DNA from: Methylococcus mesophilus
Lineage (GTDB): Bacteria > Pseudomonadota > Gammaproteobacteria > Methylococcales > Methylococcaceae
Assembly (NCBI RefSeq): GCF_026247885.1
Contig: NZ_CP110921.1
Location: 3,851,501-3,915,500 of the forward strand
Direction of reading: 5' to 3'
DNA length: 64,000 bases
This document shows, piece after piece, positions 26,511 to 36,655 of this stretch. Under the pieces are notes generated by a model, which ran no database searches, had not been told where the DNA came from, and worked only from the letters and a program-made list of their open reading frames with translations. Position 1 is the stretch's first letter; the number at the start of each line of letters is the position of its first letter. The translations under genes were made by a program, and so were the position numbers.

Positions 26511-26666
26511 CATGGGATATCCGGGGCGGCGTTTTCGGCTGGTCCGACTTACGACGGCTCCTTCCCCGGCCCCACCATCAAGGTGAAGAAAGGCGATATC
26601 CTGAAAGTCCATTTCTAGAATTCGCTGCCTGACGTGGGGATGATGGGTATCTGGAACATCCAATAG
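26511..26666 (+). pseudogene. remnant of a multicopper-oxidase-like gene
   Basis: One frame reads TYDGSFPGPTIKVKKGDILK then VHF, stops at TAG (26616-26618), and continues NSLPDVGMMGIWNIQ to a second TAG. The sequence FPGPTIxVxKGDxLxVxFxNxLP is the N-terminal cupredoxin signature of multicopper oxidases. The first stop sits where a Lys or Glu codon would be expected, so a single base change could explain it. No copper ligand region (HWHG) follows and no start is evident. I read it as a short decayed fragment in the intergenic space upstream of argG. The stretch is too short to be certain. Confidence 0.5.
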
Positions 26667-26702: not shown

Positions 26703-28025
26703 TCATACGCCCAATTTTTTCCGTTTGCGCCACAGAGTCGCCCGGCTAATGTTCAGCAGCCGGGCGGCCTGGTCGATGCGTCCGCCCGAGTGCCGCAGCG
26801 CGGCGCGGATCCGCTCGGCCTCGTCCGGCACCGGTTCCGCAGGCGCTTGCGGCTCGGCATGCTCCTCGCGGAACTCGGGCGGCAGATCGTCGAGTTCCAG
26901 CACCTCTCCCCGCCCTACGGCGAAGGCGTATTCCACCACGTTCTGCAATTCGCGCACGTTGCCCGGCCAGGGATGGTCGAGCAGGCGCCGCATGGCGTCC
27001 GGATCGATCCGGGCGATGCGGCGCAGGCCGCGGGCATTGTGCCGCCCGATGAAATGCCAGAGCAGCAGGCCGACGTCGCGGCGGCGCTCGCGCAAGGGCG
27101 GCAGGAAGATGGGAACCACGCGCAGTCGGTACATCAGATCCTCGCGGAAGCGGCCCTCACGCACGGCTTCGCGCAGCGAGCGGTGGGTCGCTGCCACGAT
27201 GCGTACATCCACGCTGAGCGTGCGGTCGCTGCCGACCGGGACGAAGCTGCGCTCCTGTAACACGCGCAGCAGTTTGGCCTGCAGTTCCAGCGGCAGTTCG
27301 GCGACTTCGTCGAGGAACAGGGTACCGCCGTCGGCGCGTTGGAACAGCCCGGCATGGTCCCGCACTGCCCCGGTGAAGGCACCGCGGACATGCCCGAACA
27401 GCTCGCTTTCCAAGAGGGAAGGCGACAGCGCGGCACAGTTGACCGCGAGAAACGGCCCCTTGGCGCGGTGGCTCTCGGCATGCACGGCGCGGGCGATCAG
27501 CTCCTTGCCTGCGCCAGACTCGCCTCGTACCAATACCGTGGCCTCGGTTTCCGCGACGTTGCGGACGATGCGGAACACCTGCTTCATCGCCGGCTCGCGG
27601 GTGATCAATCCATGCAGGATTTCGACGTCGGCTTCGGCCAAAGGGGTGCCGACGGTTTCGATCGCGGCGAGCACCTCCAGCCGGCCCAAGGGGGTTCCGT
27701 CCCGTGCCCGCAAGGAGTGGTGCCTGCGCCGCACCAGCAGTGCCGAGCCATCCGCCCGCTCGACCCGAATTTCGTCCTCGCCCATGCCGTGGCCATCGTC
27801 GGCGGCAGGATGGCTATAGCCGGCCAACAGCCGGGCGACGGGTTTGCCGGTTGCGAACCCGGCCGTGTGGCCCGTCAGGCGCTCGGCGCCCGAGCTCCAG
27901 TAGCTCACGCGTTCCTCCGCGTCCAGGAGATAGAGGGCACCGGCGCATTCGAGTCCGGCCAGGGCATCGAGCAGGCAGTGCGCGTCGAAATGGGTGCCCG
28001 GGAGGCTATCGCTTCGAGGTTTCAT
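26703..28025 (-). CDS. sigma-54-dependent activator with N-terminal PAS-like domain (FisR-like)
   Basis: A 440-residue protein with a PAS-like sensor (about 15-120), an AAA+ domain with Walker A GESGAGKE (168-175), the canonical GAFTGA loop (215-220), and a C-terminal Fis-type helix-turn-helix ([20 protein letters not shown]). It is divergent from a persulfide dioxygenase gene that has a -24/-12 promoter, with a palindrome between the two. This is the arrangement of FisR, which senses sulfane sulfur through cysteines in its N-terminal domain. Here the only cysteines in that domain are C17 and C27. The sulfur-sensing role is inferred from context. Confidence 0.85.
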
Positions 28026-28047
28026 GGGGTTTCACGGATCGTAGCAG

Positions 28048-28079
28048 GTGTTTCATGAATGGATCATAAGATGAAACAC
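28048..28079. promoter_or_regulatory. palindromic upstream activator site
   Basis: GTGTTTCAT (28048-28056) and ATGAAACAC (28071-28079) are perfect 9-base inverted arms separated by 14 bases. The site lies about 65-95 bases upstream of the -24/-12 promoter, at enhancer distance, and next to the start of the activator gene, so it could serve both activation and autoregulation. Confidence 0.7.
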
Positions 28080-28141
28080 TCCCAACTGCGCGATGCCGCT
28101 GGATTTACCTAGAGTAGCTGTAAATCATGTAATTAGCCTTG

Positions 28142-28156
28142 TGGCACAGACTTTGA
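28142..28156 (+). promoter_or_regulatory. sigma-54 (-24/-12) promoter of the persulfide dioxygenase operon
   Basis: TGGCAC (28142-28147), five bases, then TTGA (28153-28156). This is the sigma-54 consensus TGGCAC-N5-TTGC with correct spacing and one change in the -12 element (GC to GA). It is 42 bases before the start codon. Confidence 0.7.
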
Positions 28157-28198
28157 CATCGCTATTGAATGAGACAAGGCTTTTTGAAGGAGGGCCGG

Positions 28199-28906
28199 AT
28201 GATTTTCAGACAACTGTTCGAGACCGATACATCGACCTACACCTATCTGCTGGGCTGCGAACGCACCCGGCGTGCGGTGCTGATCGATCCGGTGGACACC
28301 GAGGTCGCACGCTACGAAGACCTGCTACGCGGGCTGGGGCTCAGGCTGGTCTACACTTTGGAAACCCATGTGCACGCCGATCACGTCACCGGAGCTTCGC
28401 TGCTGCGGGAGCGCCTGAACAGCAAAAGCGTGGTGCACAGAGATGCCGGGGCCGGATGCGCCGACCTCATGGTGACCGACGGTGTGCCGCTGCAGGTTGG
28501 CGCTCTGGAGTTCGAAGTGCGCCACACGCCGGGCCATACCGCCGGTTGCGTGAGCTATGTCATGAGCGACCGGGTTTTCACCGGCGACGCCCTGTTCATC
28601 GACGGCTGCGGCCGCACCGATTTCCAGCAGGGCGACGCCGGGCAGCTCTACGATAGCATCCAGCGCCGGCTTTTTTCCCTGCCTCCGGACACCTTGGTCT
28701 ACCCGGGGCACGACTATCACGGCAACACGGTGAGCACGGTCGGCCGCGAGATGGCCCGTAACCCTCGTCTGGGCGGCGGCAGGAGCCGGGAGGAATTCAT
28801 AGCGATCATGAGCGGCCTGGAGTTGGATTATCCGAAATACATCGGGCGGGCACTGCCCGCCAACCAGGCTTGCGGCCGGCTGCCCGCGGCGGAGCCTCAG
28901 GGGTGA
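28199..28906 (+). CDS. persulfide dioxygenase (ETHE1-like)
   Basis: A 235-residue metallo-beta-lactamase-fold enzyme. The metal-site motif THVHADH is at 57-61 and following, then HTPGHTAGC and the ETHE1-specific GDALFIDGCGRTDFQQGD and YPGHDY. Enzymes of this type oxidise glutathione persulfide to sulfite with one non-heme iron. AAGGAGG precedes the ATG at 28199. The next gene is a sulfite-exporter-like permease 7 bases downstream, which would remove the product. The -24/-12 promoter and divergent activator suggest induction by sulfane sulfur. Confidence 0.88.
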   Translation: MIFRQLFETDTSTYTYLLGCERTRRAVLIDPVDTEVARYEDLLRGLGLRLVYTLETHVHADHVTGASLLRERLNSKSVVHRDAGAGCADLMVTDGVPLQVGALEFEVRHTPGHTAGCVSYVMSDRVFTGDALFIDGCGRTDFQQGDAGQLYDSIQRRLFSLPPDTLVYPGHDYHGNTVSTVGREMARNPRLGGGRSREEFIAIMSGLELDYPKYIGRALPANQACGRLPAAEPQG

Positions 28907-28913
28907 TCTACCG

Positions 28914-29819
28914 ATGACCTTGGCGCTCGTATTGGCTCTGGGAATCGGCCTCCTTCTGGGGCTGCTGGGCGGCGGCGGTTCGGTGTTGATGGTGCCGATG
29001 CTGGTCTACGTCGCCGGATTTTCTCCCAAGGAGGCGATCACGACGTCGCTGGTCGTGGTCGGTTTCACCAGCCTGACGGCGCTGATCGGCCACGTCCGGG
29101 GCGGCCGGGTCTGCTGGAAGATGGGGGCGGTGTTCGGTCTGGCGGGAGCGGCCGGCGCCTATGGTGGCGGCCGGACCGCAGCGGTGCTGCCGGGCGGAAT
29201 CCTGTTGATCCTGTTCGGACTGGTGATGCTGGGGACCTCCGTGGCCATGCTGCGAGGGCGCCGCGGCGTCGATGGTCCTTCAGGCAGGGCAACGATGTGC
29301 CCTTTGAGGCTGCCGCTCTTTGCCGTGCTGTTCGATGGCGCCCTGGTGGGAGCCTTGACGGGACTGGTCGGTGCGGGCGGCGGCTTCATGGTCGTGCCGG
29401 CGCTGAACCTGCTCGGCCGCTTGCCGATGCACGCGGCCGTCGCGACCTCGCTCCTGGTGGTCGCTATGAATTCGCTGGCCGCCTTGCTGGGCTATGCCGG
29501 CCATGTCCAAATTCGCTACGACCTTGCCGCCCCGATTGCGGGAACGGCGGTAGCCGGGAGCCTGGTCGGCGGATTACTGGCCGCGCGCCTGGGCGGAAAG
29601 ATCTTGCGCCGGATGTTCGGCGGATTCGTTGCGCTGGTCGCGGTGTTTCTGCTGTATCGCGAGCTTACGCCGGACAGGCTGGACGAGATCGGCGACCTGG
29701 CGTCAGCCCACCCGGACTTTTTCCGCGGCGCCGCGGCTGTGCTGGTGGCGATGCTGCTGTCCAGGCTGCGCGGATGGCTCCATTCGCGCTACTTCGGTGC
29801 CGGCAGTGCGGTCCATTAG
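28914..29819 (+). CDS. TauE/SafE-family permease, probable sulfite exporter
   Basis: A 301-residue inner-membrane protein with eight or nine helices in two related halves, each with a glycine-rich motif: GIGLLLGLLGGGGSVLMVPM and ALTGLVGAGGGFMVVPAL. These are typical of TauE/SafE proteins, several of which export sulfite or organosulfonates. Its position 7 bases after persulfide dioxygenase supports sulfite as the substrate, by inference. Some annotations call similar proteins DUF81. Confidence 0.82.
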   Translation: MTLALVLALGIGLLLGLLGGGGSVLMVPMLVYVAGFSPKEAITTSLVVVGFTSLTALIGHVRGGRVCWKMGAVFGLAGAAGAYGGGRTAAVLPGGILLILFGLVMLGTSVAMLRGRRGVDGPSGRATMCPLRLPLFAVLFDGALVGALTGLVGAGGGFMVVPALNLLGRLPMHAAVATSLLVVAMNSLAALLGYAGHVQIRYDLAAPIAGTAVAGSLVGGLLAARLGGKILRRMFGGFVALVAVFLLYRELTPDRLDEIGDLASAHPDFFRGAAAVLVAMLLSRLRGWLHSRYFGAGSAVH

Positions 29820-29833
29820 CGAGGTGTCGGGCT

Positions 29834-29953
29834 ATGCCGAAAAAGCATGCGGTCCGTGTGGTGAAAATCCCGAAAGGGTGTACGATTGCCGCATTCGCGC
29901 CTGCCGGCCACGGTCAGCGGCCTGATTCCGACGGAATGCGAGGGATCTCATGA
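29834..29953 (+). CDS. possible 39-residue small protein between the exporter and cydP
   Basis: An ATG at 29834 with GAGGTG at good ribosome-binding distance opens a 39-residue frame, basic at the N-terminus (MPKKHAVRVVKIPKG). Its TGA overlaps the cydP ATG (ATGA at 29950). It starts 14 bases after the exporter stop. No membrane helix or known motif is present. It may be a real small protein, or a translational-coupling leader for cydP, or chance. Confidence 0.35.
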   Translation: MPKKHAVRVVKIPKGCTIAAFAPAGHGQRPDSDGMRGIS

Positions 29954-30216
29954 AGCCATACGATGGGTTTCGTTCTGTCTCGGCTGCAGCGCAGCAGGCC
30001 GGCGTGACCGCATTTCGGCGCCTGGCCTTAGCTGGCCGGCGTTCTCCGCTGGCGCGGGAAATCACCCTCGCCTTACTGTTCAAGATGATCGTGCTGTCGG
30101 GCCTGTGGGCGCTGTTCTTCCGCTCACATCCGGATGCACGGGAACCTCCGCGTCCGGCGATTCTGCTCGGTTCCAGTTCTCTTTCCTCTCCCAACCAGGA
30201 GGCGCTCAAGCCATGA
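29950..30216 (+). CDS. CydP-like small subunit or assembly protein of cytochrome bd
   Basis: An 88-residue protein with one membrane helix at about 40-58 (ITLALLFKMIVLSGLWALFF). That segment and its position directly before cydA fit the CydP family of putative small cytochrome-oxidase subunits. The first 35 residues are basic and Ala-rich and may not be part of the conserved domain. The stop overlaps the cydA ATG (ATGA), with AGGAGG 10 bases before that ATG inside this gene, so cydA translation is coupled. Confidence 0.7.
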   Translation: MKPYDGFRSVSAAAQQAGVTAFRRLALAGRRSPLAREITLALLFKMIVLSGLWALFFRSHPDAREPPRPAILLGSSSLSSPNQEALKP

Positions 30217-31790
30217 TCGGTGAAGACATCGTCAACCTTTCCAGGCTGCAATTCGGCCTGACCGCGCTCTACCATTTCTTGTTCGTGCCCTTGACCCTGG
30301 GGCTGGCTTTCCTGTTGGCCATCATGGAATCGGTCTACGTGATGACCGGCAAGGAAGTGTACAAGGACATGACCCGGTTCTGGGGCAAGTTGTTCGGCAT
30401 CAACTTCGCCATGGGGGTAACGACCGGCATCACCCTGGAATTCCAGTTCGGTACCAACTGGTCCTATTACTCGCATTACGTCGGCGATATCTTCGGCCCC
30501 ATTCTGGCCAGCGAAGGCCTGATGTCGTTCTTTCTGGAGTCGACTTTCGTCGGCCTGTTCTTCTTCGGTTGGGACCGCATGAGCCGGGTGCAGCATTTGT
30601 CCGTCACCTGGCTGCTGGCGCTGGGCACCAACACTTCGGCGTTGTGGATTCTGATTGCCAATGCCTGGATGCAGCATCCGGTGGGCACGGAATTCAACTA
30701 TGAGACCCTGCGCATGGAGCTGACCAGCTTCGCCGACGTGTTTTTCAATCCCGTGGCCCAGGTCAAGTTCGTGCACACGGTCGCGGCCGGTTATGTCACC
30801 GGAGCAATGTTCGTCCTCGGGATATCCTCTTGGTATCTGCTGAACGGGAGGGATACAGGCTTCGCACGCCGTTCCTTCTCGATCGCAGCGGCGTTCGGCT
30901 TGGCCTCGATCCTTTCGGTCATCGTGCTGGGCGATGAGAGCGGTTATACCGACGGCGAGGTGCAAAAGGTCAAGCTGGCCGCCATCGAGGGGGCTTGGGA
31001 AACCGAAAAGCCGCCGGCAGCGTTCACCGTCGTCGGATTTCCGGATCAGGACCGGCAGGAAACCCGCTATGCGCTACGGATACCGTACGTGCTCGGCCTG
31101 ATCGCGACGCGATCCATCGACGAAGAGGTCAAGGGGTTGAAGGAACTGCGGGAATCCAGTCTGGCCCATATCCGCAGCGGCCAGATCGCTTACGGGGCGC
31201 TTGAGCGAATTAGAGGGGGCGACGCCAGCCCGGCGGTGAAGGCCGATTTTGAACAACACAAGGCGGATCTGGGCTTCGCCCTGCTGCTTGCGAAGTACAC
31301 GGAAGGGGTCGCCGGGGCGGGCGAAGACCTGGTGCAGAAGGCTGCGGCCGATACCATACCTCGTGTCGCTCCGCTGTTCTGGACGTTCCGCATCATGGTG
31401 GCCTGCGGCTTCACCATGCTGTTCGTCTTCGTGATGGCCTTCTATTACTGCGCGACACGGGTGGCGGATCGCAAGCGCTGGCTGCTGAAACTGGCAGTCT
31501 GGTCCATTCCGCTGCCCTGGGTCGCAGCGGAAACCGGGTGGTTCGTCGCCGAATACGGCCGCCAGCCCTGGACCATTTCCGGCGTGCTTCCGACGCATTT
31601 GAGCACCTCGTCGATCAGCGCCGGAGAACTCTGGTTCAGCATCGCCGGCTTCGCGTTCTTCTATACGGCGCTCCTGGTGATTGAACTTTACCTCATGCTC
31701 AAATACGTGAAGCTCGGACCGAGCAGCCTGCACACCGGACGATACCACTTCGAGCGGCCGGCAGCGGCGCTCTCCAATTCAGCAGCTTGA
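30213..31790 (+). CDS. cydA: cytochrome bd ubiquinol oxidase subunit I
   Basis: The quinol-oxidising, heme-bearing subunit, 525 residues, close to the length of E. coli CydA. It begins with LSRLQFGLTALYHFLFVPLT, where His is an early heme ligand. Other landmarks are GTNWSYYSHYVGDIFG, FFLESTFVGLFFFGWDR, and VAAETGWFVAEYGRQPW with GVLPT. The insert between about 245 and 370 is a long Q-loop as in the E. coli enzyme. ATG 30213 is in ATGA overlap with cydP. It works with CydB and CydX in the cytoplasmic membrane; bd oxidases resist sulfide and nitric oxide. Confidence 0.96.
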   Translation: MIGEDIVNLSRLQFGLTALYHFLFVPLTLGLAFLLAIMESVYVMTGKEVYKDMTRFWGKLFGINFAMGVTTGITLEFQFGTNWSYYSHYVGDIFGPILASEGLMSFFLESTFVGLFFFGWDRMSRVQHLSVTWLLALGTNTSALWILIANAWMQHPVGTEFNYETLRMELTSFADVFFNPVAQVKFVHTVAAGYVTGAMFVLGISSWYLLNGRDTGFARRSFSIAAAFGLASILSVIVLGDESGYTDGEVQKVKLAAIEGAWETEKPPAAFTVVGFPDQDRQETRYALRIPYVLGLIATRSIDEEVKGLKELRESSLAHIRSGQIAYGALERIRGGDASPAVKADFEQHKADLGFALLLAKYTEGVAGAGEDLVQKAAADTIPRVAPLFWTFRIMVACGFTMLFVFVMAFYYCATRVADRKRWLLKLAVWSIPLPWVAAETGWFVAEYGRQPWTISGVLPTHLSTSSISAGELWFSIAGFAFFYTALLVIELYLMLKYVKLGPSSLHTGRYHFERPAAALSNSAA

Positions 31791-31809
31791 CAAGCGTCGG
31801 GAGGTCCAC

Positions 31810-32946
31810 ATGTTCGACTATGAAACCATGCGGGTGATCTGGTGGGTGATCACCGGAGCGGTGGCGACGGGATTCGTCCTCACCGTGGGATTCGATTTCG
31901 GCATCGGCGCCCTGCTGCCATTCGTAGGCCGTAACGATGTCGAACGGCGGGTGGTGATCAACACCATCGGCCCGACCTGGGACGGCAATCAGGTCTGGCT
32001 GATCCTGCTCGGCGGCGCCATTTTTGCGGTGTGGCCGGCGGTTTATGCGACGCTGTTCTCGGGGCTCTACATCGCTATGCTGCTGGTGCTTTATACCCTG
32101 TTTTTCCGGCCGGTCGGCTTCGACTACCGCAGCAAGCTGGAGTCTCCCCAGTGGCGCAACGCCTGGGACTGGGGGCTGTTCATCGGCGGTGCGGTGCCGC
32201 CGGTCCTCATGGGCGTCCTGGTCGGCAACCTGCTGGTCGGCTTGCCGTTCCACCTCGACGGGAGTCTCCGCACCTTCTATGACGGCAGCTTCTTCGGTCT
32301 GCTGATGCCGTTTCCCCTGCTCTGCGGCGTGATCGGCCTGCTGGCTTGCGTGTTTCACGGCGCGGTTTACCTGAGTTGCCGGACCGAAGGTGTGATCGAG
32401 CAGCGTGCCCGGCGCGTCGCCGCGATCGGCGGCGTGGTCCTGGTCGTGCTGATCGTGCTCGCCGCCGCATGGGTGATCCTCGGCATTCCGCGCCCGGAAA
32501 TCCTGACCATGGCCGGGCCCAGTGCGCCGTCCAACCCGATGGCGAAAACGGTCGATTTTTCCGGCAGCTGGCTGGCGAACTTCCAGGCGCATCCACGCAT
32601 GTTCGTCGCTCCCGCGCTGGCGGTGCTGGGGGTGCCCGCTGCGGCGGCGTTTGCCGCCACCGGCCGTTCCGCTGCGGCTTTCGCCGCCAGTGCGGTGGGC
32701 ATCGGCGGCCTGCTCTGGACGGTAGGATTCGGCCTGTTCCCTTTCATGCTGATCTCGACCACCGATCCCCGCAGCAGCCTGACGATCTGGGACGCCAGTG
32801 CGAGCCATCTGAACCTGCAATGGTCTCTGGCGATTACCCTGGTGTTTCTGCCCATCGTATTGCTCTATACCCAATGGGCCTATCGGGTGATCTGGGGCAA
32901 GGTCACGGCCGCGGACATCGCCAAGGGCGAACATACGCTTTATTGA
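31810..32946 (+). CDS. cydB: cytochrome bd ubiquinol oxidase subunit II
   Basis: A 378-residue partner of CydA with about eight helices. It begins MFDYETMRVIWW, and TVGFDFGIGALLPFVGRNDVERRVVINTIGPTWDGNQVWLI is characteristic (conserved GPxWDGNxVWLI). GGGAGGTC precedes the ATG. It follows cydA by 19 bases and is followed by cydX after 31. Confidence 0.96.
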   Translation: MFDYETMRVIWWVITGAVATGFVLTVGFDFGIGALLPFVGRNDVERRVVINTIGPTWDGNQVWLILLGGAIFAVWPAVYATLFSGLYIAMLLVLYTLFFRPVGFDYRSKLESPQWRNAWDWGLFIGGAVPPVLMGVLVGNLLVGLPFHLDGSLRTFYDGSFFGLLMPFPLLCGVIGLLACVFHGAVYLSCRTEGVIEQRARRVAAIGGVVLVVLIVLAAAWVILGIPRPEILTMAGPSAPSNPMAKTVDFSGSWLANFQAHPRMFVAPALAVLGVPAAAAFAATGRSAAAFAASAVGIGGLLWTVGFGLFPFMLISTTDPRSSLTIWDASASHLNLQWSLAITLVFLPIVLLYTQWAYRVIWGKVTAADIAKGEHTLY

Positions 32947-32977
32947 CGGTTTGATGAAACGATCGGGGAGGTGTGAG

Positions 32978-33100
32978 ATGTGGTATTTCGCATGGATACT
33001 CGGGGTGGGTTTCGCCTGCGCATTCGGTGTCATCAATGCCATGTGGCTGGAATCGGTCTGTGACATCGACGATCAGGGCTCGAGCGGCGCCGAAAATTGA
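32978..33100 (+). CDS. cydX: cytochrome bd small subunit CydX
   Basis: A 40-residue single-helix protein that starts MWYFAWILGVGFACAFGVIN, nearly the same as E. coli CydX in its first nine residues and with the same Glu after the helix (MWLESV). CydX stabilises the heme groups of cytochrome bd. GGGGAGGTGTGAG precedes the ATG. It closes the cydPABX set. Confidence 0.92.
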   Translation: MWYFAWILGVGFACAFGVINAMWLESVCDIDDQGSSGAEN

Positions 33101-33178: not shown

Positions 33179-33454
33179 ATGAAGCGGAGTATTTCAAGCG
33201 TCCTGGCCTTTGCCGGTGCGCTGGCGCTGTCGGCCGGCGTCACGGCCGGTGAAGACTTGGCCGAGTCGCAGCTGCCGAAAGCGGTGCTGAACACCTTCAA
33301 GGCGGTTTATCCGAATGCGACCGACGTCGAGTACGAGAAGAAAGTGAAACACGGCGAGACCGTCTACGAAATCGAGTTCAAGGACAAGGGCGTGGAGCGC
33401 GAGATCGTGTACAGCGCCGACGGAAAGGTGTTGAAGGCTGAATTCGACGATTAG
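33179..33454 (+). CDS. secreted PepSY-like protein
   Basis: A 91-residue protein with a signal peptide (residues 1-23, ending SAGVTAGED). The mature part has the PepSY-like pattern of one helix and a beta-sheet: LPKAVLNTFKAVYPNATDVEYEKKV, then YEIEFKDKGVEREIVYSADGKVLKAEFDD. Such proteins occur in the periplasm; some bind or inhibit other proteins, but the function here is unknown. CAGGAG precedes the ATG. It lies 78 bases after cydX and could be on the same transcript. Confidence 0.78.
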   Translation: MKRSISSVLAFAGALALSAGVTAGEDLAESQLPKAVLNTFKAVYPNATDVEYEKKVKHGETVYEIEFKDKGVEREIVYSADGKVLKAEFDD

Positions 33455-35835: not shown

Positions 35836-36618
35836 TCAGAGTACGAACTTGCAGCCGATCAGCAGGAGGAGCGAGGCGAGCGCCGGCCGCAGCAGCCATT
35901 CCGGAATCCTGGCACTCAGGTGGCTGCCCAGGTAGATGCCGGGGAGCGAGCCCACCAGGAGGCTGCCGAGAAGGGTGAAATCGACGTTGCCCATGTGCAG
36001 ATGTCCCAGGCCGGCGACGGCGGTCAGCGGGATCGCGTGCGCCAGGTCGGTCCCCACGATGCGGACCGTCGCCAGGCGCGGGTACAGGAACAGTAGCGCC
36101 ACCGTACCCAAGGCGCCGGCGCCGACCGAGGAAAGGGTGACCAGTACGCCCAGAATGAGGCCGACCAACACCGTCAGCAGGCCCTGCCAGCGTCCGAAAC
36201 GCTCCGTATGGGTCATTCGTTGCGTGGCCGATTTGTGAGCGAGTCGTTTGCGCAGCAGCAGCGACAGGCCGGTGAAGATCAAGGCGACGCCCAGGGTCGT
36301 GGTGATGATGGCGGTTACCGATTCATCTTTCTCGAAGACGGTTTCCAGCAGGTAGATGACCGCCAGTGCGGCGGGAATGCTGCCCAGCGCCAGTTGCAAC
36401 ACGATTTTCCATTCGACCGACCGGTGGGAGCGGTGATGAACGAGGACGCCGCCGCCCTTGGTAATCGCGGCGAACAGGAGATCGGTCCCTACCGCTGTTT
36501 TGGGAGCGAACCCGAACATGAAGACCAGCAGGGGGGTCATCAGCGAGCCGCCGCCGACGCCGGTCAGACCGACCAGGAACCCCACCAGCAGTCCAGACAT
36601 TGCGTATGCAGTAGTCAT
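35836..36618 (-). CDS. TauE/SafE-family sulfite-exporter-like permease
   Basis: A 260-residue inner-membrane protein with eight helices, beginning MTTAYAMSGLLVGFLVGLTG. The paired glycine motifs are GLTGVGGGSLMTPLLVFMFG and VTLSSVGAGALGTVALL. AAAGG lies before the ATG at 36618. It is only distantly like the exporter at 28914 and is not next to sulfur-oxidation genes, so its substrate is open. Confidence 0.8.
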   Translation of the reverse strand: MTTAYAMSGLLVGFLVGLTGVGGGSLMTPLLVFMFGFAPKTAVGTDLLFAAITKGGGVLVHHRSHRSVEWKIVLQLALGSIPAALAVIYLLETVFEKDESVTAIITTTLGVALIFTGLSLLLRKRLAHKSATQRMTHTERFGRWQGLLTVLVGLILGVLVTLSSVGAGALGTVALLFLYPRLATVRIVGTDLAHAIPLTAVAGLGHLHMGNVDFTLLGSLLVGSLPGIYLGSHLSARIPEWLLRPALASLLLLIGCKFVL

Positions 36619-36655
36619 GACCTTTTCCGGCAAAAAGTCCGCAGTCTATCGGAGT

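Follow-up and report, generated by a model that had tools for sequence, protein, structure and literature searches.

In Acinetobacter baumannii the sigma-54 activator FisR drives an operon for a persulfide dioxygenase (PDO1), a sulfide:quinone oxidoreductase (SQR) and a TauE permease, and sulfide also induces the cytochrome bd genes cydAB (PMC7315123). In the part of this paper at hand we found no statement that FisR controls cydAB. The comparison system for FisR is that of Cupriavidus pinatubonensis JMP134 (PMC9774590, PMC8469610). FisR is described as sensing via cross-links among three conserved cysteines (PMC9774590), and it is also treated in PMC8148161. Here we analyze a stretch of 64,000 nucleotides (nt) from Methylococcus mesophilus (contig NZ_CP110921.1, positions 3,851,501 to 3,915,500), hereafter the window, in which a sigma-54 activator gene is divergent from genes for a persulfide dioxygenase (PDO), a TauE/SafE-family permease and cytochrome bd (cydPABX). 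We consider it probable that the latter form a sulfide-defence transcription unit which includes an oxidase known elsewhere to withstand sulfide. We class the arrangement as a new form of the FisR-PDO-SQR-TauE system.

Among methanotrophs, Methylacidiphilum fumariolicum SolV raises SQR and a sulfide-insensitive ba3 terminal oxidase under sulfide, and the bd oxidases of Escherichia coli are reported to resist sulfide (PMC10205796). Both cydAB and sqr occur in methanotrophs (PMC12810054, PMC11830464). A transcriptome of Methylococcus capsulatus concerns copper, and in the part at hand the term sulfide was not found (PMC4831470). In the open-licence literature, a scope that does not imply absence from print, we found nothing that joins persulfide dioxygenase, cytochrome bd and methanotroph, and nothing that joins persulfide dioxygenase with the word stem Methylococc-.

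Results

The genes and coordinates given by an earlier note on this DNA were all borne out by the open reading frames (ORFs) together with Pfam and NCBIfam. The activator gene (26703-28025) lies on the minus strand. On the plus strand follow the genes of PDO (28199-28906), the permease (28914-29819), CydP (29950-30216), CydA (30213-31790), CydB (31810-32946) and CydX (32978-33100), with an overlap of 4 nt between cydP and cydA. The ATG at 28199 was chosen as the PDO start because it is preceded by GGAGGG; the mechanical ORF begins at 28169. No plus-strand terminator was predicted in the gaps PDO-tauE, tauE-cydP, cydA-cydB and cydB-cydX, in accordance with what the earlier note had read from the letters; over the region the terminator scan gave 8 matches, which is not above shuffled sequences (mean 5.8, standard deviation 2.7).

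Six Methylococcus genomes (G000-G005) formed the comparison set, G000 being the window genome, a single contig of 4.34 Mb. The order PDO-tauE-cydPABX with the divergent activator is kept in 6/6, including the exporter-cydP junction whose conservation had been proposed as a check. The nearest named locus returned, from M. capsulatus str. Texas (L032, 93% PDO identity), has the same gene order.

Between the divergent genes we predict a -24/-12 sigma-54 promoter, TGGCACAGACTTTGA, on the plus strand at 28142-28156 (1 match in the window vs. 0.34 expected), with A in place of the usual C at -12. Upstream of it, at 28019-28079 on the same strand, lie predicted activator sites composed of the half-sites GTTTCA (28019, 28029 and 28050) and TGAAAC (28072), the last two of which sit within a perfect 9-bp dyad (28048-28079). 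Taken with 7-nt arms, this dyad has a single copy in the window genome and is exact in five of the six Methylococcus and in G019, one arm being changed in G001. The -24/-12 site is aligned across all six Methylococcus, and both half-sites and site are found again in the activator-PDO gaps of relatives. In the window genome the pattern TGGCAY-N5-TTGW occurs at 28 places, with more than one half-site upstream only at the PDO promoter, and GTTTCA-N2-30-TGAAAC occurs at 4 places, the PDO dyad among them. This predicted promoter with its half-sites and its recurrence in relatives is new here.

If the activator controls cyd, genomes in which cyd does not lie behind PDO are expected to carry the promoter in front of cyd. 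A matrix was trained on 20 of 22 activator-PDO gaps with sites picked by eye, leaving out G008 (no clear enough site) and G028 (a near copy of G023); in leave-one-out scoring the chosen site was the best in 19/20, the exception being G031. We applied this PDO-trained matrix to the 600 nt before cydA of 31 cyd loci, G013 contributing 374 nt, and required at least two half-sites upstream. Activator orthologues were accepted at E <= 1e-130, a limit reached by the best matches in 32 genomes besides its own; in G036 the activator is split at contig ends.

Where an activator is encoded and cyd is unlinked, the promoter precedes cyd in 8 of 11 loci (G008, G011, G012, G021, G025, G029, G031, G032), with 13.3-21.4 bits and 2-5 half-sites. 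Where cyd lies directly behind PDO or PDO-tauE and the orthologue is present, an own promoter occurs in 0/9 (G000-G005, G006, G017, G020). Genomes without an activator orthologue have it neither before cyd (0/7 loci: G010 twice, G030, G039, G041, G051, G057) nor, at 12 bits, before PDO (0/8: G010, G014, G022, G027, G030, G033, G043, G053). G013, with a contig that starts 374 nt before cydA and a 15.6-bit site without half-sites upstream in that stretch, stands outside the own-promoter count. Three linked genomes fall in neither group, namely G023 and G036 (gaps of 1.7-2.1 kb; two half-sites, 8.8 and 9.5 bits) and G056 (3.2 kb; no such site).

Two half-sites with at least 6 bits were found in 10/31 real cyd upstreams compared to 2/6200 mononucleotide shuffles. 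Of real 600-nt windows 81/5682 pass, a number that includes the promoters themselves in overlapping windows, and off-target places reach at most 11.0 bits. A wider scan covered both strands of 201 of 232 loci (2.22 Mb; the short L001-L031 were left out), which were chosen for their genes and do not represent a whole-genome rate. At 12 bits and two half-sites it gave 55 matches, assigned by hand: 43 before PDO (4 of them duplicating places already counted), 8 before cyd, 2 before SQR (G006, G020) and 2 elsewhere (L096, L106). FNR-like patterns were absent from the 31 cyd upstream regions. By its promoter sequences, cyd appears to belong to this activator's regulon, and from the comparison of promoters PDO and cytochrome bd are likely to be under common control in this family.

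A further hint comes from a maximum-likelihood CydA tree of 31 rows, a gene tree with midpoint root, on which the PDO-linked label requires 3 changes and the own-promoter label 4, each with at least 3 supported by well-supported branches. G017, which is linked and has no own promoter, is placed together with G012 and G021, which have one. One wiring seems to take the place of the other, as would be expected if selection keeps co-regulation.

PDO and cydA lie on the same strand, 0.4-3.2 kb apart, in 13 of the 24 genomes with both and in 6 of 13 genera (G000-G005, G006, G010, G017, G020, G023, G036, G056). The count, made by comparing coordinates by hand, required at least 60% identity for PDO and 65% for CydA; matches below these values, G049, G057 and G059 among them, were left out. 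In three methanotroph records of another kind (L068, L073, L075) the genes for PDO, for an SQR-like protein with 21% identity to the window-genome SQR, for a transporter that we read from its translation as SulP-like, and cydABX all run in one direction. Finally, full-length CydA and this SQR are both encoded in 26 genomes. SQR comes after cyd, on one strand with it, in 14 of them, the other twelve being the six Methylococcus, G006, G020, G030, G056, G049 (divergent) and G013 (different contigs). Because of these three kinds of linkage the oxidase is placed in sulfide-oxidation neighbourhoods well beyond the window. That the neighbourhood is a chance adjacency without regulatory meaning, as the 11 of 24 genomes with PDO and cydA apart might suggest, is very improbable, since the adjacency exceeds chance by the counts just given, the three one-direction records repeat it, and the promoter type is common where the genes are unlinked.

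Some neighbouring arrangements may be recorded here. Two cydA copies are present in G010. One lies behind PDO-tauE and has SQR after it; the other (L164) is situated just downstream of a second SQR. In G057, which belongs to another family, one strand (L166, 5481-11518) carries cydP-A-B-X together with a TauE-like gene, an SQR-like one (26% identity) and a PDO-like one of a different subfamily; the same partners may have come together there independently. Extra genes stand between cydA and cydB in L113 (10131-11769), L118 (1618-2214) and L159 (3847-4344); the one in L113 reads to us like a heavy-metal-associated domain fused to a membrane protein.

Several observations weigh against control of cyd by the activator. 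Three loci with activator and unlinked cyd (G016, G049, G059) have no such promoter before cyd, and G009, G013 and G015 possess an activator orthologue, yet no PDO site of 12 bits. Of the linked genomes, G006 and G020 have a weak PDO promoter (10.3 and 8.1 bits) and a TTAG-N-CTAA palindrome there; the strong site precedes SQR instead, from which the activator is divergent there. In linked G017 the PDO promoter reaches 17.5 bits but has a single half-site. Because of these three genomes, it is less secure outside Methylococcus that the activator drives linked cyd. Within Methylococcus, SQR lacks half-sites in the 350 nt upstream in 6/6, and so the regulon does not take in all sulfide genes. Two more points of this kind, the conserved block before cydP and the absence of the clustered activator cysteines, are weighed below.

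The SQR of the window genome is encoded about 340 kb away (C1:4217578-4218849; E 5.5e-162 to the solved sulfide-quinone reductase 3sz0). Upstream of it a TTAGCATTTGCTAA-like palindrome is found in 6/6 Methylococcus (L233-L238, one base being different in L236), and with this palindrome and no half-sites another regulator is likely there. The pattern TTAG-N-CTAA, which was chosen after viewing the sequences, occurs in 10 of 39 PDO upstreams of 250 nt vs. 32 of 2890 background windows (G006, G010, G014, G017, G020, G022, G027 and three more), and in no Methylococcus PDO upstream. We take it to resemble BigR operators, and it is possibly the operator of an ArsR-type sulfur sensor.

The earlier note had allowed for a separate cyd promoter at 29820-29950. 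A candidate is a block on the plus strand at 29849-29898, which is identical in 35 of 50 columns of the six Methylococcus (26/30 in the best 30-nt stretch), compared to 36% identity at third codon positions of PDO, 34% at those of tauE, and 52% over the initial part of cydA. From this alignment the row for the dyad, which is out of register at the edge, was not used. The block holds TACGAT, a possible -10 element, and the tauE-cydP gap keeps its length of about 130 nt. One could therefore argue that in Methylococcus cyd is expressed from a promoter of its own in 29849-29898 that responds to oxygen or redox state, and that cyd stands behind tauE as a leftover of an ancestral sulfide cluster, with little gain in expression. 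We regard this explanation as unlikely. A sigma-70 scan gave no site in the block; the exact block pattern is absent from all 25 cyd loci outside Methylococcus; relatives place the activator promoter before cyd; and the gene order is unbroken in all six. An own promoter and read-through could nevertheless act side by side. A second copy of the block was not found in the window genome at up to 2 mismatches. As a coding cause of the block we considered a 39-codon ORF (29834-29953), which is open in G000, G002 and G005 and, by eye, has an early stop in G003 and G004; changes are often off third positions, and the coding reading was rejected. Judged from the sequence, Methylococcus cyd is most likely served both by read-through and by a separate, weaker promoter within 29849-29898.

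In other cyd loci we noticed a leader element of the form CCCC-N-AGCC-AGGGAC-GGCTTTT, a short hairpin followed by T, before cydP. By pattern it occurs in 6 of 31 loci (L153, L154, L156, L162, L128, L129), about 280-345 nt before cydA, and its loop presumably resembles a CsrA site. At Rfam gathering scores only tRNAs were matched in the window, L153, L160, L128 and L113, the hairpin of L153 and L128 thus being unmatched.

The activator combines a sigma-54 AAA+ domain (PF00158, Sigma54_activat) with a Fis-type helix-turn-helix (PF02954, HTH_8), and like FisR it is divergent from sulfide-oxidation genes with a predicted sigma-54 promoter between. Its N-terminal region is PAS-like, the match being just below the curated cut-off in the window and clear in two relatives. 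In an alignment of 39 rows three clustered columns hold cysteine in 25, 23 and 18 rows, and in 0/6 Methylococcus rows; these columns are assumed to be the FisR cysteines of C. pinatubonensis. All six Methylococcus activators share C17 and C27 (15 and 25 in G001), the first of which is also present in G013. Measured against this assumed cluster, the window activator lacks a defining feature of FisR while it is FisR-like in place and promoter. The FisR-type sensing implied by the earlier note is weakened to that extent; the place and the promoter type fit.

This leaves room for an activator that answers a signal other than sulfane sulfur, e.g. sulfite, redox state or another ligand of the PAS-like region, with the whole unit serving that signal. 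The missing cysteine cluster is an argument for it. We nevertheless think it rather improbable: the activator is divergent from PDO, its promoter type is common with relatives that keep the cysteines, and all six species have C17 and C27 in common. Since the cluster is absent and C17 and C27 are present instead, we speak of sulfide or sulfane sulfur as no more than the presumed signal in Methylococcus.

As to the encoded proteins, PDO has an ETHE1-like metallo-beta-lactamase fold (Pfam Lactamase_B) and aligns along its length with 4ysb (E 1.4e-77) and human ETHE1 4chl (E 8.9e-68); it stays below every NCBIfam equivalog cut-off, and persulfide dioxygenase activity is assigned from fold and alignment. 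The permease belongs to TauE/SafE (PF01925, E 9.9e-47), and its possible role as a sulfite exporter derives from the family name. CydA, cytochrome bd subunit I (Pfam Cyt_bd_oxida_I), is of the E. coli bd-I type (E 3.6e-231 to E. coli bd-I CydA) and retains H19, E99, H186 and M393, positions counted by hand with the residue numbers of the haem ligands from PMC4831470. Together with subunit II, CydB (Pfam Cyt_bd_oxida_II), and the small subunit CydX (Pfam YbgT_YccB), both above their NCBIfam cut-offs, this identifies a cytochrome bd-I. CydP, a putative small subunit, has no Pfam match and passes NF045611 with 32.8 bits (cut-off 29.6). The window genome has a single CydA match and two matches to haem-copper oxidase subunit I.

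In the surroundings, a PepSY-like protein just below the Pfam cut-off is encoded after cydX on the same strand (33179-33454), with a match at the equivalent place in the other five Methylococcus. A second TauE/SafE-family permease lies at 35836-36633 (minus strand) and also downstream in G002-G005. Between argG and the activator, positions 26547-26663 hold a multicopper oxidase gene remnant, a near-start piece followed by an end piece; at this site G002-G005 have ORFs of 505-518 amino acids and G001 has none.

Discussion

The sulfide-defence unit that we favor would operate as follows. Rising sulfide or sulfane sulfur would lead the divergent activator to bind the GTTTCA/TGAAAC sites at 28019-28079 and to drive sigma-54 RNA polymerase from 28142-28156. 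PDO would turn persulfide into sulfite, which TauE may export. Read-through across the 130-nt gap would raise cydPABX, probably supplied also by the weaker promoter in 29849-29898, so that quinol, including that from the SQR encoded elsewhere in the genome, could still be oxidized by cytochrome bd while other oxidases are inhibited. The sulfide resistance assumed in this last step, known elsewhere, is carried over from the E. coli bd oxidases.

The earlier note had proposed that sulfide induces detoxification, export and cytochrome bd together. The apparent membership of cyd in the regulon supports this proposal in part, and more strongly than the window could by itself, given the own promoters in unlinked loci, the SQR genes that follow cyd, and the induction of cydAB in A. 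baumannii; in Methylococcus cyd may be read from the PDO promoter, from one of its own, or from both. A bolder and more tentative generalization, to which we lean less than to the unit itself, would, for Methylococcaceae and close methanotrophs, count cytochrome bd among the regular members of a FisR-like sulfide regulon and let it move between two wirings, one directly behind PDO and the other with its own copy of the activator sites and sigma-54 promoter. The Methylococcus activator would in addition have swapped the cysteine cluster for C17 and C27, so that an old regulon carries a sensor of new design.

The effect of H2S on methanotrophs has been called virtually unknown (PMC10205796). The locus gives a genetic basis, open to testing, on which methanotrophs among the Proteobacteria could keep up respiration and methane use where sulfide and methane rise together. 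That two wirings connect a respiratory oxidase with a single promoter type points to selection for co-expression, beyond one genome.

Compared with known systems, the ArsR-type persulfide-sensing repressors BigR and SqrR offer another way for sulfur to control PDO or SQR genes, to which the TTAG-N-CTAA pattern before some PDO genes and before Methylococcus SQR could be related; a difference is that the pattern does not precede PDO in Methylococcus. The likeness to FisR-PDO1-SQR-TauE of A. baumannii (PMC7315123) lies in the divergent sigma-54 activator, the predicted sigma-54 promoter, PDO and TauE, whereas Methylococcus has cydPABX after tauE, SQR elsewhere and an activator without the clustered cysteines. 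With M. fumariolicum SolV it would share the raising of a sulfide-insensitive terminal oxidase along with SQR in a methanotroph (PMC10205796), but there the oxidase is of the ba3 type and the host a verrucomicrobium, whereas in Methylococcus it is of the bd type and physically joined to PDO.

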